Shown here: positions 33,570 through 43,609 of the stretch, one piece after another
Position numbering within the stretch: the stretch's first letter is position 1
How the letters are laid out: every line of letters starts with the position of its first letter
The notes under the pieces: model-generated
Database searches by the model: none
Seen by the model: only the letters and a program-made list of their open reading frames with translations
Told to the model about the DNA's origin: nothing
Position numbers and translations under genes: made by a program
From: Acuticoccus sediminis
Lineage (GTDB): Bacteria > Pseudomonadota > Alphaproteobacteria > Rhizobiales > Amorphaceae
Reading direction: 5' to 3'
Length of the DNA: 64,000 nucleotides
Assembly (NCBI RefSeq): GCF_003258595.1
Contig: NZ_QHHQ01000011.1
Span: 62,001-126,000, forward strand

Positions 33570-34181
33570 CGTGCGCTCCGGGCCGATCCAGCCGCGGGCC
33601 GGCCGTGGCGGCGCCTAGGGCCGCCGCCCGCGCGCTGTCGGTCGAAGAGTGGCTGTGCGGCTTCATTTGCGCGGCCTCTCGATGGGACGTTGAGGGGTCG
33701 GGAGTGGGCGGTCTGATGTCCGAAGTGTTACTAAAAATAGGACCATAGGCCCTTAGGGTGGTCAATTACTTCGCACGCTGAATTTTTAATCATTATAACG
33801 TGCGGGTTTGTGCCACTCGCGACGCGAAATGCATGCTTCGACATCCATGAGCGACTCTCGTGGGCGGGGGTCTGCCTACGATCGCGACGCGTCGCCGCCG
33901 TCATGCCGCACAGGCACGGTTCGAAAAGTCCGAATGGAGATGCCGGGTTAGCCGGCCTCGTCGGCGTGAATGCGCCGGTTCGCGCGGGGTCCTCGCCTGC
34001 CTGATGCGGAACGATTCCGATCCGGGTCGCCTCCGTCCGGAGCCTCGCCTGCCGCGCGATGGGCATGGTCAATAGATCCCGTTCGGCCTTCTTGAGGACC
34101 GAATGCGGGCCGATAAGGCGCCGGGCCGACGCGGAAACGGAGCCCGCGCGGTCTCGACATCGGACACGGGAGACTTGGGTG
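33570..34181. other. Divergent intergenic region with AT-rich island
   Basis: About 610 bp between the minus-strand importer operon and the VOC-like gene. The stretch 33720-33800 is distinctly AT-rich and contains ATTATA at 33792-33797 (TATAAT on the minus strand) and the imperfect inverted repeat GACCA...TGGTC (33741-33763), good candidates for promoter and operator of the importer. At 33847-33861, ATGAGCGACTCTCGT is a weak match to the operator repeated further right. No gene was recognised. Confidence 0.5.
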
Positions 34182-34721: not shown

Positions 34722-35627
34722 TCAGCCGACGTGACGCAGGGCGTCGACGATGACGGCGAAGGCCGGCGAGGACTGGCGGCGGTGCGGGTAATAGAGGTAG
34801 TAGCCCGGGAAGGGCGGGCTCCAGTCCTCCAGGACGGGGACGAGGCGGCCCTCCTCGATGTGCCGTTCGACGAGGCTCTCCGGCGCGTAGCCGAGCCCGT
34901 AGCCGGCGAGGGCCGCATTGACCACAGGGCCGATGGCGTTGAAGGTCAACTGGCCGTCGACGCGGACCCGCAGCTCCCGCTCGTCCTTCTCGAACTCCCA
35001 GGCGTATAGGCCGCCGTGCGTCGGCAGGCGCAGGTTGATGCAGACATGGTCGGTGAGGTCCTGCGGCACGACCGGCCTTTCCCTCCCCTGGAAATAGGAC
35101 GGCGCGCCGACGACGAGCATGCGGAAATCGGGCCCCACGCGCACCGCGATCATGCCGTCGTCGACCTGCTCGCCCAGTCGGACGCCGGCATCGAACTTCT
35201 GCCCGACGATGTCCGTCAGGCCGTACTCGGACACGATCTCGACCTTGAGGTCCGGATAGTTCTTCAGGACCGGAGCCAGTTTCGGCCAGATCACGGTGTC
35301 CGCCGCGTAGTCGGTCGCGGTGATGCGGAACGTGCCGGCCGGGCGATCCTTCATGTCGATCAGCACGGCCAGCTCTTCCTCGATCTCGGCGAGGCGGGGC
35401 GCGATCCGCTTCAGGACACGCTCGCCCTCGGGCGTCGGCGTCACCTTGCGCGTCGTACGGGTGAGGAGGCGGATGCCGAGCCTCTCCTCGAGGCCGCGCA
35501 TGGAGTGGCTGAGCGCGGACTGCGACACCCCGATCTGCGCGGCGGCGCGCGTGAAACTCCCTTCACGAGCGACGACGATGAAGGACATCAGGTCGGCCAC
35601 GTTTTCGCGCAGCATTAATGAGCTCAT
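34722..35627 (-). CDS. LysR-family regulator of the detoxification island
   Basis: A 301-residue LysR-type regulator. The HTH is GSFTRAAAQIGVSQSALSHSM at about residues 23-43, followed by LTRTTRKVTPTPEGERVL. The effector domain matches the subgroup with QRRQSSPAF near the C-terminus, common for regulators of reductases and exporters. The start could be the ATG at 35627 or the one at 35615. The 15-bp inverted repeat ATGAGCTCATCTCAT at 35618-35632 overlaps this start, and TATAAT on the minus strand (35645-35650) lies just upstream, so autorepression is likely. The same repeat recurs before genes up to 8 kb away. Confidence 0.9.
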   Translation of the reverse strand: MSSLMLRENVADLMSFIVVAREGSFTRAAAQIGVSQSALSHSMRGLEERLGIRLLTRTTRKVTPTPEGERVLKRIAPRLAEIEEELAVLIDMKDRPAGTFRITATDYAADTVIWPKLAPVLKNYPDLKVEIVSEYGLTDIVGQKFDAGVRLGEQVDDGMIAVRVGPDFRMLVVGAPSYFQGRERPVVPQDLTDHVCINLRLPTHGGLYAWEFEKDERELRVRVDGQLTFNAIGPVVNAALAGYGLGYAPESLVERHIEEGRLVPVLEDWSPPFPGYYLYYPHRRQSSPAFAVIVDALRHVG

Positions 35628-35632
35628 CTCAT
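35618..35632. promoter_or_regulatory. Operator copy 1 (ATGAGC-N3-GCTCAT type) at lysR start
   Basis: ATGAGCTCATCTCAT matches the consensus ATGAGC-N3-GCTCAT at 11 of 12 specified positions and keeps the LysR T-N11-A spacing. A further half site, ATGAGCGCAG on the minus strand, lies at 35637-35646, directly downstream of a TATAAT. Likely autoregulatory site. Confidence 0.65.
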
Positions 35633-35650
35633 GGGACTGCGCTCATTATA

Positions 35651-36058
35651 GCGGCGCGGTCGCTGATGCCGACGCGACATTTTCTCCCCGAGGTCCTCCG
35701 AACGGCAACGAACGAGGTGTTGGAGCACGGGGAGAGCGCCGCCCCGGCGGCCGCGAGGTGCGGTCCCGGCCCCGTCCCCGGGCCGCCGCCGGACCGATAT
35801 CGACGGGCGTGTGCCCGCTGTTGCGGGGAGATTCGGCTGGTGAAGCGGCGCGTTCGGAGTAGAAGCGATCTTCCCGAGGGTGCCGGCCACTGAACTCGCG
35901 TGTCGGGCGGCAGTGCATCCGGCGCCGTTCCATGAGCCGGCCTCATCAAACCTATCAGCGCCTCACCATAGTCACTCGCTTCCACATCGTTATGTCAGTC
36001 ACGGCCTGATCAGCGCTGCCGCTGAGGAGGCCATTGCAGCAACGGTACGGAAATAGAC
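35651..36058. other. Divergent intergenic region, lysR to CMD gene
   Basis: About 400 bp. Beyond the operator close to lysR it holds only short Arg-rich open frames without ribosome sites. It presumably carries the CMD gene promoter, but no second clear copy of the operator was found. Confidence 0.4.
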
Positions 36059-36826
36059 ATGCGGAAGATTGCAATACTTGCCGGCGCGCTGGCCATGACT
36101 GGACCGACGGCGAAGGCCCAGGAGGCGCTTCCGGTCGAAATGGAGCGGCTCGGCGCCGTGTCTCCGGCCCTGCAGGCCTATACGGCGGACGACCTCTTCG
36201 GATCCGTCTGGCAGGACAGCGCCCTGTCCCAGCGCGACCGGGCGCTCCTGACCGTGGCCGCCCTGATCGCGCGGAGCGAGGACGAAGGGCTGGCCGAGTA
36301 TATCGATCTGGCGATCGACCGCGGCGTGACGCCTGCCGAGATCTCCGAGACGATCACGCACCTCGCGTTCTACGCCGGCTGGCAGAACGCCATGAAGGGC
36401 GTCGACGCGGCGGCCGAGGTGTTCGAAGCCCGCAACGTCACGGCCGCCGACCTGCCCGCAGTCGAACCTCAGTCCATGCTTCCGCTCGATCAGGAATCGG
36501 AGGACCAGCGCCAGTCCTTCGTGCAGGAGCGCTTCGGCAACGTCAGCCAGGGTGTCGTCGACAACACCGAAAAGCTTCTGTTCCTTGATCTGTGGCTTCG
36601 CCCCGCGCTGGCGCCGCGCGACCGCAGCCTCGTGACGGTTTCCGCTCTGATCGCCACCGGCAAGGTGGAGCAGGTGACGTTCCACCTCAACCGGGCGATG
36701 GACAACGGGCTGACGAAGGACGAAGCGTCGGCGGCCCTGGCGCACCTCGCCTTCTACGCCGGCTGGCCGAACATTTTCTCGGCCATGCCCGTCGTCAAGG
36801 AGGTCTTCGACAGCCGCGAGGGCTGA
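36059..36826 (+). CDS. Exported double carboxymuconolactone-decarboxylase-domain protein
   Basis: A 255-residue protein with a short signal peptide (MRKIAILAGALAMTGPTAKA, cleavage near AQE). It contains two CMD/AhpD-like domains: one at about 45-120 (SQRDRALLTVAALIARS, THLAFYAGWQNAM) and one at about 175-250 (APRDRSLVTVSALIATG, AHLAFYAGWPNIF). Neither has the CxxC of AhpD peroxidases, so it is more like gamma-carboxymuconolactone decarboxylase in chemistry. The periplasmic location is unusual for this family. It is the first plus-strand gene after the divergent lysR and is followed by the cupin. Confidence 0.87.
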   Translation: MRKIAILAGALAMTGPTAKAQEALPVEMERLGAVSPALQAYTADDLFGSVWQDSALSQRDRALLTVAALIARSEDEGLAEYIDLAIDRGVTPAEISETITHLAFYAGWQNAMKGVDAAAEVFEARNVTAADLPAVEPQSMLPLDQESEDQRQSFVQERFGNVSQGVVDNTEKLLFLDLWLRPALAPRDRSLVTVSALIATGKVEQVTFHLNRAMDNGLTKDEASAALAHLAFYAGWPNIFSAMPVVKEVFDSREG

Positions 36827-36920
36827 ACTGGCGTCCTGCGCATGTCTTCGGGGGTGTCACAGGAATCGCCCCCGGAGCGGAGCCCGCAGCCGGTCACTCG
36901 CTCCGGCTGGCGATGGTTTC

Positions 36921-36935
36921 ATGAGCGCAGCTCAT
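36921..36935. promoter_or_regulatory. Operator copy 2 before the cytoplasmic cupin
   Basis: ATGAGCGCAGCTCAT is a perfect 6-3-6 inverted repeat 89 bp before the cupin start codon. It matches the LysR T-N11-A rule and is the best copy of the repeated operator. Confidence 0.7.
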
Positions 36936-37024
36936 GAGTGCCAGTCGAGCCGGCGCCGTTTTCGATGCCGATCGCCCGACTATCTGTCTCGGCAGACACG
37001 CGTCATTTCGAAGAGCATGAAGCC

Positions 37025-37420
37025 ATGAAAATCACACGAGCCGGAAGTCAATCATCGAACCCCGGCCCCGAGGACTGGTTCACCGGGAGGGTTCGTATCG
37101 ACCCGCTTTTCGCCGCCGAGGAGCCGGGCCGCACGTCCGGCGCGGCGGTGACGTTCGAGCCGGGCGCGCGGACGGCCTGGCACACCCACCCGCTCGGCCA
37201 GACCCTGATCGTGACCCAGGGCAAGGGCCGTGTGCAGCGCGAAGGCGGCCCGATCGAAGAGATCCGTCCCGGCGACGTCGTCTGGTTCCCGGCCGGCGAG
37301 AAGCACTGGCACGGCGCGTCCCCGGACGTCGCGATGACGCACATCGCGATCCAGGAATCGCAGGACGGATCGCCGGTCACCTGGCTCGAGAAGGTCAGCG
37401 ACGCCGACTATCAGGGCTGA
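37025..37420 (+). CDS. Small cupin protein, cytoplasmic copy
   Basis: A 131-residue single-domain cupin. The metal site is seen in [20 protein letters not shown] (two His and a Gln/Glu position) and in [14 protein letters not shown] (last His). No signal peptide exists if translation starts at the ATG at 37025, which fits family length. Its closest relative in the window is the exported cupin at 38335, with about half the residues alike in the core. Cupins beside CMD proteins occur widely in gene sets for stress by quinones or aldehydes. Enzyme activity unknown. Confidence 0.87.
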
Positions 37421-37509
37421 CGGCCCCGCGGCGGGCCCGCTGCCCCGACCGCTGCCCCGGCCCGCCGACCAATCCACGCGAGCTGGCCGCTCCCGATCAA
37501 GGACAAGTC

Positions 37510-38220
37510 ATGCGACCGAAGATCACCTGCCACATGATCACATCCCTCGACGGTCGCCTGCGTCCGGACCGCTGGAGCGGACCGGCGGGCGCGTCGATGA
37601 TGGACCTCGTCCATCGCGTCTATGACGACACCGCCGGGCAGTTCGAGGCGGACGGGTGGATCGTCGGGCGGAAGACCATGGCCGACTATCTGGGCGAGAT
37701 CCCGGACCCGGTCCTGCTCGACGCACCGTCCGTCCGCGCCCCGCACGTCGGTTCGCGCGGCGGTCGGAATCTCGCGGTGGCGATCGATCCGTCGGGCCGG
37801 CTGCGGTTCGAGGACGACAACGTCGACGGCGACCACGCCGTCGTGATCCTCTCCCAGCGGGTTCCCGATTCGACGCTCGCGCGGCTGCGCGAGCGTGGCG
37901 TCTCGTATGTCTTCGCCGGCGCGGACGGTCACGATCTCGCCGACGCGCTGGAGGCCGTCGCTGACGCCCTCTCGGTGCGCCACCTGATCCTGCAGGGGGG
38001 TGCCGTCATCAACGGGTCGTTCCTCGCCGCTGGCCTGATCGACGAGGTGTCCACCCTGATCGCACCGGCCATCGACGGCCTCTCGGGCATCCCGGCGATC
38101 TTCGAGCACGACGGGGGCCCCGACAGCCGCCCTGCTGCGGGCCAGCACCTTCGCCTCATCTCCAGCCAGACACTGGAGGACGGCGTGATCTGGCTCCGCC
38201 ATGAGGTCCGCCGCGGCTGA
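37510..38220 (+). CDS. RibD C-terminal/dihydrofolate-reductase-like NADPH reductase
   Basis: A 236-residue cytoplasmic protein of the RibD C-terminal family (pyrimidine reductase fold). Landmarks are ITCHMITSLDGRL at the start, DGWIVGRKTMADYL near residue 55, VRHLILQGGAVINGSFLAAGL near 155-175 and DEVSTLIAPAIDG. It binds NADPH and reduces an unknown carbonyl or imine. There is no riboflavin gene nearby, so it is not part of vitamin synthesis here. It lies 89 bp after the cupin gene and probably shares its transcript. Confidence 0.87.
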   Translation: MRPKITCHMITSLDGRLRPDRWSGPAGASMMDLVHRVYDDTAGQFEADGWIVGRKTMADYLGEIPDPVLLDAPSVRAPHVGSRGGRNLAVAIDPSGRLRFEDDNVDGDHAVVILSQRVPDSTLARLRERGVSYVFAGADGHDLADALEAVADALSVRHLILQGGAVINGSFLAAGLIDEVSTLIAPAIDGLSGIPAIFEHDGGPDSRPAAGQHLRLISSQTLEDGVIWLRHEVRRG

Positions 38221-38334
38221 CACCGGCCGCACCCCGAAGTTCGGCCGTCCTGCCGTGCCGCGAGGCGCGGGCGGGGAGGTCGTGCGCCGGCCTGGCCGAT
38301 CAGGGCCAGCCCACCCAACTCTCTGGAGTGATTG

Positions 38335-38799
38335 ATGCTTAGACAGACCGCAATCGCCATCACCGCCGCCCTGGCCGTATCCGGCGCGTCCGCGCAAGAG
38401 ATGGAGATCACCAGGAATGGCAGTCGGGACGGCATGATCGGTTCGCCGGACCTCTTCACCGGCACCGTCTACGTGGAGCCGGTGTTCGGCAACCCGGAGC
38501 CCTTCATGGTCAACGCGGGCAAGGTGACGTTCCTGCCGGGGGCGCGGTCCAACTGGCACACGCACCCGGCGGGCCAGATGCTGATCGTCATCGACGGGAC
38601 CGGCTGGGTCCAGGAAGAGGGCGAGGAAAAGCAGGTGATGCAGCCCGGCGACGTGATCTGGTGCCCGCCCGCGGTGAAGCACTGGCACGGCGCGACGGAC
38701 ACGACCTCGGTCACCCACTACGCCGTCCAGCAGTTCGAGAACGGCGAGAACGTGACCTGGATGGAGCCTGTTACCGACGAGCAGTTCGCCGCCGAGTAA
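38335..38799 (+). CDS. Small cupin protein, exported copy
   Basis: A 154-residue cupin with a signal peptide ([20 protein letters not shown], cleavage near residue 20). The metal-binding motifs [20 protein letters not shown] and [14 protein letters not shown] parallel the cytoplasmic cupin encoded 1.3 kb upstream, so this looks like a duplicated gene that gained secretion. GGAG lies 6 bp before the ATG. The periplasmic location matches that of the CMD protein and the cyclophilin-like protein in the same island. Confidence 0.87.
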
Positions 38800-39010
38800 T
38801 CACCGGACGCCTTCGAGACTGCGGCAGACGGCCATCACGCCGCCGCCTGCCGCGACAACTCCCCGCCTCCGCACGACGGCCCCCGCGCGCGGTGTGACCG
38901 CGAGCAAGTGGCCAGCCGATTGTTTGGCGAATTGCACCCGAGCCACGGCGGCGTCCGTCCCGCATCATGGGCGGCCGTTTTCGGCACTCGATCTGAATGG
39001 AAAGCACGCC

Positions 39011-40411
39011 ATGACCGGCGAACATCGTCTGGACGGAGCGACCGGTGTCCGCCCGGCGGCCGAGAAGGCCGCACTCAGCCTCACAGTGGTCTCCGCCGCG
39101 ACGGCGCTGGTCCTCATCGTCTTCACCATCCCGCTGACGACGATGAGCGCCACATCGAGGATGCTCGCCATGGGGCCGAGCGGGGAAGCGTGGCTCCTCT
39201 CCGCCATGCCCCTCGGCGCGGCGACCGGCCTTCTCGGTGCGGCGGCGCTCGGCGACGACCATGGCCGGCGTCTGGTCTTCCTCTGGGGTCTTGGCGTGAT
39301 GGCGGCCGCGTCCGTTCTGGGTGCCGTCGCGACAACGAGCCTGGTGCTCATCGTCGCGCGGATCGTGCAGGGGCTCGGCGGCGCGGCGGTGATGGCGTGC
39401 GGGCTCGGCCTCGTCGGCAGGATCTACCCGGAGGGGCGGGCGCGCGCGACCGCGGCGGGGGTCTGGGCCGCGGGTCTGGGCGCCGGCGTCGCGATCGGCC
39501 CGATCCTCGCGTCCTGCCTCACCGGTCTCGGCGGATGGACGGCGTCGTACTGGGCCAATGCCATCCTGTCGGCCGGCCTGCTCGTGGCCGGCCACGTCCT
39601 CCTGCCGCCGTCGGAGCCGCGACGGCCGCAGCCGGCGGACTGGCTCGGCACCATCCTGCTGATGGCGGGCCTCGCAATGTTCATGGCCGCGCTGACGGAG
39701 ATGCGCTTCGGCATTGCCAGGCCGACGGTGATCCTGCTGCTGGCCGGCGGGCTTGCCGTCCTCGGCGCCTTCGCCGTGGTCGAGCTGAGGCATCCCCGGC
39801 CGATCCTCGAATTGCACTTGTTCCGGAGCCCCGCCTTTTCCGGCGCGACGATCGCGGCCTTCGCATCCGGGGCCGGTGTGCTGGCGCTGATGTCCCTCGT
39901 TCCGACGATGATGATGCGGGCGATGCAGGCGACGGCGCTCGACGCCTCGCTGGTCCTCACGGCGTGGTCGGCGACCAGCGTCGTCACGGCGCTCTGCGCG
40001 CGCTGGCTGCCGGAGACGCTGACGCCGCGCGTTCTCCTGGTCGGCGGTCTCATCGCCTGCGGGGTCGCCCAGATGCTGCTCTTCGGGAGGTCACCGGACG
40101 GTTCCGCGCTTCTGCTGCTTCCCGGCCTCTTCCTGGCCGGTGCGGCCAACGGGGTGCTCAACGCCGCGCTCGGCCGGCAGGCGGTCGCCACGGTGCCGGC
40201 GGACCGGGTCGCCATGGGTAGCGGGGCCAACAACACCGCGCGCTATCTCGGCTCGGCCATCGGCATCACGGTCGGCGCGGTCCTGATGGCGCACGGCGCG
40301 GACGTCGACGGCGTGGACGGGCTGCTCTCCGGGTGGAACGAGGCCACCCTGATCACCACGGGCTTCTCGCTACTGGGCGCGATCACCGTCGCCGTCGCCA
40401 GGGACGGATGA
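39011..40411 (+). CDS. MFS multidrug-type exporter (DHA2 family)
   Basis: A 466-residue inner-membrane transporter with about fourteen hydrophobic segments. The MFS motif A region is LLGAAALGDDHGRRLVFLWG near residue 75-95, and IVQGLGGAAVMACGLGLV forms the conserved fourth helix. The central loop EPRRPQPADW separates the halves. The family exports cationic or lipophilic compounds using protons. The ATG at 39011 gives the proper cytoplasmic N-terminus. It stands in the middle of the detoxification island. Its stop codon overlaps an operator copy. Confidence 0.88.
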   Translation: MTGEHRLDGATGVRPAAEKAALSLTVVSAATALVLIVFTIPLTTMSATSRMLAMGPSGEAWLLSAMPLGAATGLLGAAALGDDHGRRLVFLWGLGVMAAASVLGAVATTSLVLIVARIVQGLGGAAVMACGLGLVGRIYPEGRARATAAGVWAAGLGAGVAIGPILASCLTGLGGWTASYWANAILSAGLLVAGHVLLPPSEPRRPQPADWLGTILLMAGLAMFMAALTEMRFGIARPTVILLLAGGLAVLGAFAVVELRHPRPILELHLFRSPAFSGATIAAFASGAGVLALMSLVPTMMMRAMQATALDASLVLTAWSATSVVTALCARWLPETLTPRVLLVGGLIACGVAQMLLFGRSPDGSALLLLPGLFLAGAANGVLNAALGRQAVATVPADRVAMGSGANNTARYLGSAIGITVGAVLMAHGADVDGVDGLLSGWNEATLITTGFSLLGAITVAVARDG

Positions 40412-40422
40412 ATGCCGCTCAT
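40408..40422. promoter_or_regulatory. Operator copy 3 before the cyclophilin-like gene
   Basis: ATGAATGCCGCTCAT matches the repeated operator at 10 of 12 specified positions and keeps T-N11-A. It lies 136 bp before the next start codon. Confidence 0.5.
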
Positions 40423-40558
40423 CAGTGCTTGCGGGCTAGCCTGTTGTTCGGCGTTGCGCGACCGGGTCATATCAGCGCGAAATCACGAACCACCCGCGTG
40501 GCGCCGCTCGGCCGCATGACAGATCGGGAGGCGCCGGCATGAAGCGCAGGGGCAGGAC

Positions 40559-41005
40559 ATGAGGGGGCGGACAGGCCGGACCACCATCGCGCTCGTCGCT
40601 GCTCTTTTCATGGCGACCGCGCCGGCGGGCAACGCTTCGGCAGAAGGAGCCGACATGAACATCCGCATCATCATCGACGGCGAGGTTTCGACGGCAACGC
40701 TCGAAGACAATGCCGCGGCGCGGGACTTTGCTGCTCTCCTGCCCCTCGACCTCACCCTGAAGGACTACCACGGCATCGAGAAGGTCTCGCCCCTTCCGGC
40801 CAAACTCTCGACGCGAGGCACGCCGGACGGGATCGACCCCGACGTCGGTGACATCACGCTCTACGCCCCGTGGGGAAACCTTGCGATCTTCTACCGTGAC
40901 TTCGGCTATTCGCGGGGCCTCGTGCGCTTGGGGCGCATCACCTCCGGCCTCGAACGCCTGCAGCGGCAGGACAGCTTCAGCGCCCGGATCGAGAGGGCCG
41001 ACTGA
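40559..41005 (+). CDS. Exported cyclophilin-like fold protein
   Basis: A 148-residue protein with a signal peptide (cleavage near ASAEGA, about residue 29). The mature part MNIRIIIDGEVSTATLEDNAAARDFAALLPL and the segment DITLYAPWGNLAIFYRDFGYS are typical of the cyclophilin-like domain family (PF18050). It is usually found with reductases and LysR regulators. The ATG at 40559 is preceded by GGGGCAGG. An operator copy lies upstream. Biochemical role unknown, though the fold may bind a small ligand. Confidence 0.85.
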   Translation: MRGRTGRTTIALVAALFMATAPAGNASAEGADMNIRIIIDGEVSTATLEDNAAARDFAALLPLDLTLKDYHGIEKVSPLPAKLSTRGTPDGIDPDVGDITLYAPWGNLAIFYRDFGYSRGLVRLGRITSGLERLQRQDSFSARIERAD

Positions 41006-41111
41006 GGCCAGCCGCGCGACCGACACATCCGCCTCGTGCGCCGGCGCCCCTGAACGGCGGGGCCATCGGGTTCACCGCTGCCCCACGTCCTGAGTGCTGG
41101 CCATTGTGTCG

Positions 41112-41126
41112 ATGAGCAAGGCTCAT
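41112..41126. promoter_or_regulatory. Operator copy 4 before the DUF6152 gene
   Basis: ATGAGCAAGGCTCAT is a perfect 6-3-6 inverted repeat matching copy 2, 107 bp before the start codon of the exported DUF6152 gene. Confidence 0.7.
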
Positions 41127-41233
41127 AGGAGCTTGCAGAAGAGCGCGATTATTCACCCCGCGACCGTCACCTAGAGTGCCGGCGCATGGTGCATGCACCG
41201 GCACTCAGTTCAATGCACTGGAGATCCATCTCG

Positions 41234-41755
41234 ATGCGCAGGCTCATCAAGACGGCAGCCGTATTGGCGGTGACTGCGGCGGCATTCGCCGCGGCCGGAA
41301 CGGCCTCACGTGTTTCAGCGCATCATGGCTGGAGTTCTTTCGACACGCGCGCGGCTTACTACGTCCGCGGCACCGTCACTTACGTGCGCTGGGGCAACCC
41401 TCACTCGGAGGTGACGATCCGCGTCGACGCGGCGGAGCTGCCGGAGGGTTTCAGGGAGCGGCCGCTGCCGCCGGGCGGCAACGAGGCCAACGGAGCGCCG
41501 ACGCTGGCATCCGCCCGGCCCTATGAAGGCGAGCAGCAGGAACTGCATCTCGTCCTCGCCGGGCCCGGCTGGATGGCGCGGTGGGGCATGGACCGCCCGC
41601 TCGCCAATGGCGAGACGATCGAAGTGCTGGGCTTCCTCGGCAGCGCCGACGCCGAGGAGATGCGACCGGTGATGTTCTGGCTCGAGGACGGGCAGGGGGT
41701 GTGGCAGCAGCTCACCGCGCTGCCGGCACGCCCCGAGCCGGCGCCCTCGAACTGA
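41234..41755 (+). CDS. Exported DUF6152 family protein
   Basis: A 173-residue periplasmic protein. The signal peptide (residues 1-29) ends at VSAHHGWSSFDTR, which is the diagnostic start of DUF6152 proteins. YYVRGTVTYVRWGNPHSEVTIRV is conserved too. A paired histidine at the mature N-terminus might bind a metal. ATG codons at 41186 and 41213 would lengthen the leader but spoil it. It is followed 57 bp later by a DUF6644 membrane protein, a pair commonly seen together. Function unknown. Confidence 0.82.
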   Translation: MRRLIKTAAVLAVTAAAFAAAGTASRVSAHHGWSSFDTRAAYYVRGTVTYVRWGNPHSEVTIRVDAAELPEGFRERPLPPGGNEANGAPTLASARPYEGEQQELHLVLAGPGWMARWGMDRPLANGETIEVLGFLGSADAEEMRPVMFWLEDGQGVWQQLTALPARPEPAPSN

Positions 41756-41812
41756 GTTTCAAGGCGCCGGCCGCAGCCGTCGGCCAGCGCCGCCGCATTG
41801 AACGGACCGCCG

Positions 41813-42316
41813 ATGATCGATGCGATTCCCATGCTCGGGCCGGTCCTGACCGGCATCGAACAGTCGGCCCTCGGGACTGCGGTGCGCATGACACCGCAGC
41901 TCTACCCGATATTGGAGAGCCTCCACATTCTCGGCATCGGCCTGCTCGTCGGCCCCGCCGTCGCGGTCGACATGCGGCTGCTCGGGCTTGGCGGCCGGTC
42001 AATTCCCGTCAGCACCGTCCTGCGGCATCTGTTGCCGCTCTGCTACGCGGGCTTTGCCCTCGCCGGCGTCTCCGGCCTGATGATGTTCAGCGGCATCGCG
42101 CTGGCGGTCGGGCAGAGCGCGGCGGCGCCCTGGAAGCTCGGACTGATCCTCCTCGGCGCACTCAACATCGCGGTCTTCCATCGCGGCATCCATCGCTCGG
42201 TCGCGTCATGGGACCGAGCGCCCGTACCGCCGCGCCGGGCCCGCATCGCCGGAGCGGCGTCGGCGCTCGTCTGGACCGGCGTGATCGTCGCCGGGCGATA
42301 CCTCGCCTACGTCTGA
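41813..42316 (+). CDS. DUF6644 family membrane protein
   Basis: A 167-residue inner-membrane protein with four hydrophobic segments. Landmarks are LGTAVRMTPQLYPILESLHILGIGLLVG and AVDMRLLGLGG. Histidines in the first and second helices (SLHILG, LRHLLPL) could bind haem, as suspected for this group. It is encoded right after the DUF6152 gene and probably works with it. Activity unknown. Confidence 0.82.
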   Translation: MIDAIPMLGPVLTGIEQSALGTAVRMTPQLYPILESLHILGIGLLVGPAVAVDMRLLGLGGRSIPVSTVLRHLLPLCYAGFALAGVSGLMMFSGIALAVGQSAAAPWKLGLILLGALNIAVFHRGIHRSVASWDRAPVPPRRARIAGAASALVWTGVIVAGRYLAYV

Positions 42317-42356
42317 CCGGCGGGCTCCGGCGGTGTGCCGTTCACGGTCGCAAAAA

Positions 42357-42383
42357 AGGCCGCTCCCGTCTGGGGAGCGGCCT
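42357..42383 (-). terminator. Rho-independent terminator of the aldo/keto reductase gene
   Basis: A perfect stem of AGGCCGCTCCC with its complement is followed on the minus strand by TTTTTT. It lies 140 bp downstream of the aldo/keto reductase stop codon and is the most canonical intrinsic terminator in the window. It could also stop transcription from the left. Confidence 0.85.
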
Positions 42384-42519
42384 CTCGTCCTCGTACGCCA
42401 CCGTGCCATGACGACGCCCGCGGCATCCGGGCGGAACCACAGGAACGCGTTCGCGATCTCCCCGGCCGTTCGGAGGCCATCGACGCCGGAAGTCCGGGAC
42501 CGGACGGCGGGCGGTCCGG

Positions 42520-43383
42520 CTACATCCTGCCCCCGTAGACCGGGAAGACGCTCGCATCGCCGTAGTCCTTGATGGGCTCGGCGCTCCTGAGCACGTCCAT
42601 GTCCGCGTCGGAGATGTCGAAGTCGACGGCGGCGTTGCTGCGCATGTGGTCCGGGTTCGCCGTCTTGGGCAGCGGCAGCAGGCCGAGCTCGAGGCAGTAG
42701 CGGATACAAAGCTGCGGGACGCTCACGCCGTACTTCGCGGCCATCGCGGCGATATCGGTGTTGCCGAGGATCTTCCCGTGGCCAACCGGCGAGTACGCCT
42801 CGACCAGCATGCCCTTGCTCCTGGTGTAGTCGATCAGGTCGAACGGCGTGTTGCTGACATGCGCGAGGATCTGGTTGATCATCGGCCTGGTGGCCGCGTT
42901 GTCGATCAGGTTGTCGAGGTCGGCCTGCTGGAAGTTCGACACGCCGATGGCGCGGATCTTGCCGGCCGCGTACGCCTCTTCGAGCGCCCGCCAGGCCTCC
43001 AGATTGCCGTCGAAATAGCGATCCTCGCCGCCGAAATCGGACCACGGCTGCGGGCTGTGGATGATCATCAGGTCGATGTGGTCGAGGCCGAGGGTCTTCA
43101 GCGACCCGTCGATCGACGACTTCGCCGCCTCGTGGGTCTTGATGCCGGCGTCGAGCTTGGTCGTCACGAAGAGCGACTCGCGCGGGACGCCGCAGCCGCG
43201 GACCGCCTCGCCGACGCCCCGCTCGTTGCCGTAGGCCTGCGCCGTGTCGATGTGGCGGTATCCGATCTCGACGGCGGCGCGGACCGCTTTCGCGACGACG
43301 CCGTCATCGATCATCCAGGTGCCCAGGCCGAGCTTCGGAATGTCGACACCGTTCGGCAGGGTGTAGGTTTCGTCCAGGACCAT
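42520..43383 (-). CDS. Aldo/keto reductase (2,5-diketo-gluconate reductase-like)
   Basis: A 287-residue NADPH-dependent reductase of aldehydes and ketones with a TIM barrel. The catalytic tetrad is Asp46, Tyr51 (DTAQAYGNE), Lys76 (TTKLD) and His109 (MIIHSPQ). AIGVSNFQ and YCLELGLLPLPKTANP are also family motifs. AAAAGG lies before the ATG at 43383. It is transcribed toward the island. An operator copy lies 212 bp upstream, so it likely joins the same regulon and reduces a toxic carbonyl. Confidence 0.92.
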   Translation of the reverse strand: MVLDETYTLPNGVDIPKLGLGTWMIDDGVVAKAVRAAVEIGYRHIDTAQAYGNERGVGEAVRGCGVPRESLFVTTKLDAGIKTHEAAKSSIDGSLKTLGLDHIDLMIIHSPQPWSDFGGEDRYFDGNLEAWRALEEAYAAGKIRAIGVSNFQQADLDNLIDNAATRPMINQILAHVSNTPFDLIDYTRSKGMLVEAYSPVGHGKILGNTDIAAMAAKYGVSVPQLCIRYCLELGLLPLPKTANPDHMRSNAAVDFDISDADMDVLRSAEPIKDYGDASVFPVYGGRM

Positions 43384-43594
43384 TGTGTTGCCTTTTCTTC
43401 CGGGCTGCTGTGAGCCGCATCTCGTTCCGGATCGGGCACCGCCGGGCGCCGCGCTCCCGGCCGGGCCATGCCGGCCGGGGTGGACGCGTCGATGTCGCCA
43501 TCGGCGTTCCGGGCGCGCCGCGTGCCGTGCTCCGCTGATCGGGATGTACGGCGGCAGGGGCCCGAAGATTACCGATGCAGGCCGGCAATCACTC

Positions 43595-43609
43595 ATGAGC
43601 AGGGAACAT
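43595..43609. promoter_or_regulatory. Operator copy 5 upstream of the aldo/keto reductase gene
   Basis: ATGAGCAGGGAACAT matches ATGAGC-N3-GCTCAT at 10 of 12 specified positions with the T-N11-A spacing intact. It lies in a 411-bp gap (43384-43794) in which no gene was recognised. Confidence 0.5.

Follow-up and report, generated by a model that had tools for sequence, protein, structure and literature searches.

We analyzed a 64,000-nucleotide stretch of the Acuticoccus sediminis genome (contig NZ_QHHQ01000011.1, positions 62,001 to 126,000; hereafter the window) in which a gene for a LysR-type regulator sits among genes for cupins, a CMD-family protein, an aldo/keto reductase and others. Operators of the form ATGAG-N5-CTCAT, or close to it, lie before lysR and before five neighboring units. 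We give a probability of about 0.6 to the reading that this LysR governs an aldehyde/electrophile-responsive regulon, which would comprise the units of this island and an unlinked paoABC operon. The comparisons below also suggest that the regulon is common to Alpha-, Beta- and Gammaproteobacteria. Sites, clustering, conservation, promoter layout and gene families were computed, and from them we infer binding, activation, autoregulation, inducer and substrate.

Operator sites in the window

An original prediction, made from the letters of the window, had placed a 15-bp inverted repeat at 35618, 36921, 40408, 41112 and 43595. All five copies were found there in the window sequence; those at 36921 and 41112 were indeed perfect 6-3-6 repeats, and the T-N11-A spacing typical of LysR sites held. 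A sixth site had been overlooked: it lies at 35932, with the CMD start 113 bp further on. We scored the window with a 27-bp matrix built only from sites of other genomes, with no A. sediminis site in training. The six sites were its six highest-scoring places (Table 1), followed by 33847 (11.0) and 54604 (10.85). A weak copy claimed at 33847 was dropped, as its score is about that of the unrelated place 54604, i.e. background. Since the matrix was trained only on sites whose ATGA-N7-TCAT core is perfect, it under-counts degenerate ones.

The site at 36921 was also the genome-wide best match to an Infernal sequence model from relatives. The weakest of the six, at 43595, has two core mismatches, lies 212 bp before the likely aldo/keto reductase start at 43383 and faces the minus strand. 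It is followed by GAGTG, the same letters as after the site at 36921. Together the sites define lysR and five target units: CMD; cupin 1, RibD-like, cupin 2 and MFS (presumably one operon); cyclophilin-like; DUF6152 and DUF6644; and aldo/keto reductase.

Rarity and clustering in the genome

The genome (7.76 Mb, 44 contigs) contained ATGAG-N5-CTCAT at six places in 7,759,911 bases, four of them at window positions 35618-41126, within 5.5 kb, and the pattern read backwards at none. The shorter core ATGA-N7-TCAT occurred at 19 places, five in the island, against two for its backwards control. A Poisson estimate for the observed clustering is ~1e-11, for a region chosen after the fact. The Infernal model, built from 83 relatives' sites with 150 of 361 candidates scored, gave nine matches over the whole genome at E up to 10: eight were both strands of four island sites, and the ninth was C4:269109 on another contig. 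The two off-island exact ATGAG-N5-CTCAT places were set aside, with extended-matrix scores of 7.7 and 10.8 vs 16.8-29.0 in the island. When three mismatches were allowed the window was not enriched (19 matches vs 26.5 expected by shuffling); only good motif matches carry signal. Equal abundance of the motif elsewhere in the genome had been named as the outcome that would speak against a regulon, and good matches were instead concentrated in the island. The assembly itself is large for the genus, at 7.76 Mb vs 4.4 to 5.6 Mb in the seven genus mates searched.

Conservation in relatives and plasmids

We searched 150 relatives, of which 24 had the LysR at no less than 55% identity, and assembled a second collection of 80 named loci; the comparison covered 104 loci from Alpha-, Beta- and Gammaproteobacteria with a LysR orthologue at ≥55% identity. 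When matrices trained on one half of the loci were applied to the other, a site (score >15, within 6 kb) was found in 78/104 loci vs 1/104 for the reversed matrix. Perfect ATGA-N7-TCAT was present in 84 of 215 de-duplicated upstream regions, while control spacers from 3 to 13 other than 7 gave 0 to 7 regions and permuted half-sites 0 or 1. These regions were cut from 258 by shared 30-mers and exclude our own locus (L065), other own-genome loci (L062-L064, L066, L067), low-identity loci (L059-L061) and duplicates (L069, L074).

Among 134 core sites (our own five included), 53 were at the lysR start. Site density peaked at lysR, was raised to ~6 kb on either side and fell to 0-1 per bin beyond 7 kb, with two sites at least 7 kb away. 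Sites away from the lysR start were called intergenic in 71 of 81 cases by a rough open reading frame script. Genes like those of the window were found within 8 kb of lysR in 92/104 loci: cupin 1 in 81, CMD in 31, RibD in 19, cyclophilin-like in 18, cupin 2 in 15, MFS in 4, aldo/keto reductase in 3, DUF6152 in 2 and DUF6644 in 1. Cupin 1 is thus the constant partner and the others vary. DUF6152, often with DUF6644 or a small neighboring protein, was also seen near members of the LysR clade in unrelated genomes (L098, L110, L138, L074, L152), though rarely (2/104 within 8 kb).

Four of six plasmid loci outside all training carried sites scoring >15 (4, 3, 5 and 6 sites). On an Ancylobacter plasmid, all five operators had a CTAATC-like -35 and a TA at 60-61 on the plus strand; the plasmid's cupin, CMD, alcohol dehydrogenase and 2Fe-2S genes are encoded on that strand too. 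Sites on a Klebsiella plasmid precede SDR, MFS, aldo/keto reductase and nitroreductase genes, the aldo/keto reductase operator lying 83 bp upstream. Cupin 1 matched in 274 plasmid records, 17 of them from Klebsiella or Escherichia. A tree of 59 LysR proteins placed the window LysR in a supported set of 11 (support 98) that mixes Alpha- with Gammaproteobacteria (Acuticoccus, Halomonas, Arhodomonas, Henriciella, Thalassospira, Jiella, Kushneria, Salinicola), and among the seven other genus members searched a close orthologue was found in G004 and G005. The LysR system was probably transferred between classes. G006, a member of the genus that lacks the LysR orthologue, gave a weak model match; the surrounding stretch looks like coding sequence, and we attributed the match to chance.

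Palindromes do arise by chance, and the three-mismatch counts were not raised. Chance, or a repeated mobile element carrying the palindrome, is nonetheless an extremely improbable source of the sites: genome clustering, the spacer and half-site controls, the relatives' matrix and the cross-validated counts all speak against it, as does the flanking DNA, which outside the operator arms differs among the six sites.

A second LysR of this genome (38% identity; G000:C5:503603-504598, locus L066) lies between two ATGA-N7-TCAT sites, one of which has CTGATC and a TA at 61 on the minus strand. From these flanking sites, the paralogue may use a related operator.

Promoter layout and proposed autoregulation

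Target promoters shared a layout, counted from the first operator base: operator at 0, a CTAATC-like -35 at 37-42 (CTAATC being the average reading of these positions) and a -10 near 60. This is the arrangement expected for LysR activators. At single-target sites, TANNNT stood at 59-61 in 16/37 toward the gene vs 1/37 away from it. At lysR-proximal sites it was found in 16/52 toward the divergent gene and 0/52 toward lysR, with further peaks at 65 and at 31, the latter larger and probably lysR's own -10 read backwards. All five window targets had a TA at 59 to 62 (Table 1); a TA within four given starts is expected by chance in ~4% of promoters. The spacing to these -10-like elements predicts that the operator lies near -65 to -66 of the activated promoters.

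The operator beside lysR is 3 bp upstream of the start at 35615, at -17, and a TATAAT lies a dozen bases upstream of it. In relatives, too, the gap between the lysR-proximal site and lysR is usually 2-3 bp, and of 42 lysR upstream regions with a perfect core 33 carried it at position -17 or -16 relative to the start. A position hard against the lysR start suggests autoregulation, and the offset together with the upstream TATAAT would fit repression of lysR by its own protein.

We propose the following mechanism. The LysR protein would bind the ATGAG-N5-CTCAT operators. At its own gene, where 3 bp separate operator and start codon, binding would probably limit expression. At the five target units LysR would sit ~66 bp ahead of the predicted start of transcription, adjoining a poor, CTAATC-like -35 element that is itself half-site-like, and inducer-bound LysR would recruit or free RNA polymerase. 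The targets and paoABC would then oxidise, reduce, bind and export reactive aldehydes or related electrophiles.

Regulation could also be limited to lysR, CMD and the cupin operon, with the sites at 40408, 41112 and 43595 as decoys. Support from relatives is thinner for the cyclophilin-like, DUF and aldo/keto reductase sites, and the last is the one with core mismatches. Still, all three have the TA at +60 to +62 in the direction of their gene, vs the ~4% chance per promoter, and the Klebsiella aldo/keto reductase gene has its own operator; we judge this restricted regulon to be quite unlikely.

An unlinked paoABC operon and E. coli K-12

The 14 off-island ATGA-N7-TCAT places were led by C4:269112, which scored 18.1 (next 14.8). 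It was the only off-island place above 10.9 with both a CTAATC-like -35 and a TA near 60 (at 61). It sits 88 bp before a gene for PaoA, followed by an FAD subunit (FAD_binding_5) and PaoC. Both PaoA (340.1 bits vs 322) and PaoC (1197.9 vs 1180) passed their equivalog cut-offs, which by family assignment identifies the operon as paoABC, a periplasmic aldehyde oxidoreductase. The regulon thus probably reaches beyond the island to another contig, and paoA lies 2-4 kb from lysR in three relatives (G005, G117, G147). This genome has six PaoA-like iron-sulfur subunits; of the two upstream regions scored, the C4 copy had the operator and the other did not (-11.0).

The E. coli K-12 paoA promoter holds a like operator and layout, with a site scoring 19.6 at 123 bp before paoA, TAATCC at 37-42 and TATGCT at 59, while none of 106 kb of other E. 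coli K-12 DNA scored 15 or more. YagP, encoded next to paoD, is a fragment from the effector domain of a LysR. Over 119 residues it has 33% identity to the window LysR; YagP and YafC share 25% over 108 residues. Unlike the A. sediminis system, YagP has no DNA-binding domain and no local cupin/CMD cluster was seen within the 11 kb examined. The yagP gene (L196:1882-2292) is bordered by the CP4-6 prophage end on one side and by paoD on the other, and the E. coli records listed annotate the same short protein; among the matches listed (40 of 3,583 records), none had a full-length LysR annotated next to paoD.

Genes of the island and their likely function

The window LysR had PF00126 (HTH_1, N-terminal; 79.4 bits) and PF03466 (LysR_substrate, C-terminal; 122.4 bits), both above cut-off. 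Cupin 1, of 131 amino acids, has relatives in the Protein Data Bank (PDB 4bif, 8oz8, 4uxa), and by the NF049940 cut-off both cupins belong to the (R)-mandelonitrile lyase cupin family. The GtHNL-type cupins (4bif, 4uxa) are in the same family; here its members stand inside a predicted regulon with aldehyde enzymes. Signal peptides are likely in the CMD protein and cupin 2, and a signal peptide reading makes 41234 the likely true start of DUF6152. Two closer identities were rejected: the CMD protein falls short of 4-carboxymuconolactone decarboxylase PcaC (TIGR02425 110.2 vs cut-off 155.7) and is assigned to the CMD superfamily only, and the aldo/keto reductase is below the equivalog cut-offs for DkgA (175.6 vs 425) and DkgB (148.4 vs 327).

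Table 1 Operators, predicted promoter elements and genes of the island (window positions; scores from the relatives-only matrix)
Feature	Position	Strand	Details
lysR, regulator	34722..35615	-	297 aa from start 35615; open reading frame also open from 35627
Operator 1, ATGAGCTCATCTCAT	35618..35632	.	abuts lysR; score 24.5, rank 2 in window
Operator 2, ATGAGCCGGCCTCAT	35932..35946	+	before CMD; score 21.2; TA at +59
Predicted -10 TATGTC, CMD promoter	35991..35996	+	layout learned on relatives; not strict TANNNT
CMD-family protein, two CMD domains	36059..36826	+	PF02627; relative of PDB 4g9q
Operator 3, ATGAGCGCAGCTCAT	36921..36935	+	before cupin 1; score 29.0, rank 1 in window
Predicted -10 TATCTG, cupin 1 promoter	36981..36986	+	TA at +60
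Cupin 1, (R)-mandelonitrile lyase family	37025..37420	+	NF049940 202.8 bits, cut-off 140
RibD C-terminal-domain reductase-like protein	37510..38220	+	PF01872
Cupin 2, same family as cupin 1	38332..38799	+	NF049940 171.3 bits, cut-off 140
MFS transporter, DHA2-like	39011..40411	+	PF07690; TIGR00711 101.6 bits, below cut-off 230
Operator 4, ATGAATGCCGCTCAT	40408..40422	+	before cyclophilin-like gene; score 20.0; TA at +62
Cyclophilin-like fold protein	40559..41005	+	PF18050
Operator 5, ATGAGCAAGGCTCAT	41112..41126	+	before DUF6152; score 21.2; TAGAGT at +60
DUF6152 protein	41186..41755	+	PF19649
DUF6644-like membrane protein, start uncertain	41813..42316	+	PF20349 26.4 bits, just under cut-off 27
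Aldo/keto reductase, DkgA/B-like	42520..43383	-	PF00248
Operator 6, ATGTTCCCTGCTCAT on - strand	43595..43609	-	before aldo/keto reductase; score 16.8; TA at +61 on - strand

We scanned 70 of 86 site-linked proteins of relatives, the 16 left out being mostly the central LysR. The 70 comprised cupins (11), MFS (7), cyclophilin-like proteins (6), CMD (5), SDR (4), LysR (4), molybdenum-enzyme 2Fe-2S subunits (3), zinc alcohol dehydrogenases (3), RibD-like proteins (3), cytochrome P460 (3), aldo/keto reductases (2), an RND pump (1) and others. PQQ-type GSDH genes (2/70) were found in this set beside cytochrome P460. Oxidation by PaoABC, reduction by aldo/keto reductase, SDR, alcohol dehydrogenase and RibD-like proteins, and export together fit aldehydes or related electrophiles. 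The detoxifying theme of the original prediction is kept, narrowed to aldehyde/electrophile defense as the likeliest form. Its single LysR over a dispersed gene set also finds support in the cross-genome comparison, since the relatives' matrix picks the same window sites and the sites track LysR orthologues, keep a fixed distance to the -10 and face genes; its local scope probably does not stand, with paoABC on another contig.

The same regulon might instead answer to reactive chlorine or general oxidative stress. PMC9751292 lists a 131-residue cupin, of unknown function there, with LysR and SDR families among the strongest associates of chlorite dismutase, and cupin 1 has the same length. Chlorite dismutase was not found in this genome, which leaves no such link within it, and paoABC and the aldo/keto reductase point to aldehydes. 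We regard this other signal as unlikely.

Weighing the proposed regulon

Several results weigh against an aldehyde-responsive regulon of this extent. Sites were missing at score 15 from 26/104 LysR loci and at >15 from plasmid loci L148 and L152, and no core site was found upstream of relatives of DUF6152, DUF6644 and MFS (1, 2 and 4 regions). Strict TANNNT was present in only one of five window promoters, the other four having the TA only. The paoABC site alone was not significant genome-wide (E 1.06). Across the 30 PaoA-like copies whose loci could be retrieved, scores >15 were found for 6/24 in LysR genomes and 0/6 in genomes without it (P 0.30); only three of those six have a TA near 60, and in the two nearest relatives, G004 and G005, the copies reach scores of 8.4 and -3.3. 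Some site-linked genes, including those for cytochrome P460 and formamidase-like proteins, do not clearly fit aldehydes. At a strict threshold the model matched in 8/24 LysR genomes but also in 7/126 others.

These matches in genomes without the LysR orthologue could mean that the sites serve a different LysR-type regulator whose boxes have a similar core. MetR (ATGAA-N5-TTCAT) would be an example, as according to PMC5002191 it shares the ATGA-N7-TCAT half-sites and spacing. However, MetR was absent among the best 25 of 52 NCBIfam matches of the window LysR, the sites concentrate at lysR and its neighbors, and no window target looks like a methionine gene. MetR is of a different LysR subgroup with different targets, and here G/C is preferred beside the core. 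Another regulator of this kind is in our view very unlikely, a shade more so than the decoy sites above. An aldehyde/electrophile-responsive regulon of the window LysR remains our preferred reading.

Relation to known LysR systems

LysR regulons are already known as a kind, and the half-site core is shared with MetR; this one is unusually well marked. As in LysR-type activators with divergent or multi-promoter local regulons, the regulator pairs HTH_1 with LysR_substrate, the sites show T-N11-A, one operator lies beside its own gene and others near -66 of predicted starts. It differs in the number and scatter of its target units, at least five with an operator each, and in a predicted unlinked one. 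CrgA of Neisseria (PDB 3hhg) is one of the solved LysR proteins nearest to ours and, as stated in PMC6422896, regulates mdaB through T-N11-A. The CrgA operator of P. aeruginosa SJTD-1 was rejected as the same element, its sites being described there as mirror repeats rather than this palindrome. E. coli YafC is the best NCBIfam match of the window LysR by E-value and neighbors dkgB, an aldo/keto reductase gene. However, it matches at 147.1 bits vs a cut-off of 470 (NF040888) with 27.6% identity, and yafC/dkgB was rejected as the counterpart locus, as it has no operator (best score -1.2). No description of the regulon was found in the literature searched, most subscription journals being outside that search.

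Implications

Only tentatively, and with the odds somewhat against it, do we extend this to a horizontally shared proteobacterial aldehyde-defense regulon. In that extension the operator, CTAATC and a -10 at +60 would mark any gene as a member, hydroxynitrile-lyase-type cupins would gain a first physiological setting with CMD and cyclophilin-like partners, and the paoABC operator and YagP fragment would be its E. coli K-12 remnant. If the regulon is real, one short promoter signature would allow its members to be recognized in the genomes of three proteobacterial classes. Aldehyde/electrophile defense would become one testable setting for several gene families: mandelonitrile-lyase-like cupins, the CMD-like proteins of the periplasm, cyclophilin-like proteins and DUF6152/DUF6644. 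The finding would also suggest how paoABC may be controlled in E. coli, or may have been in the past.

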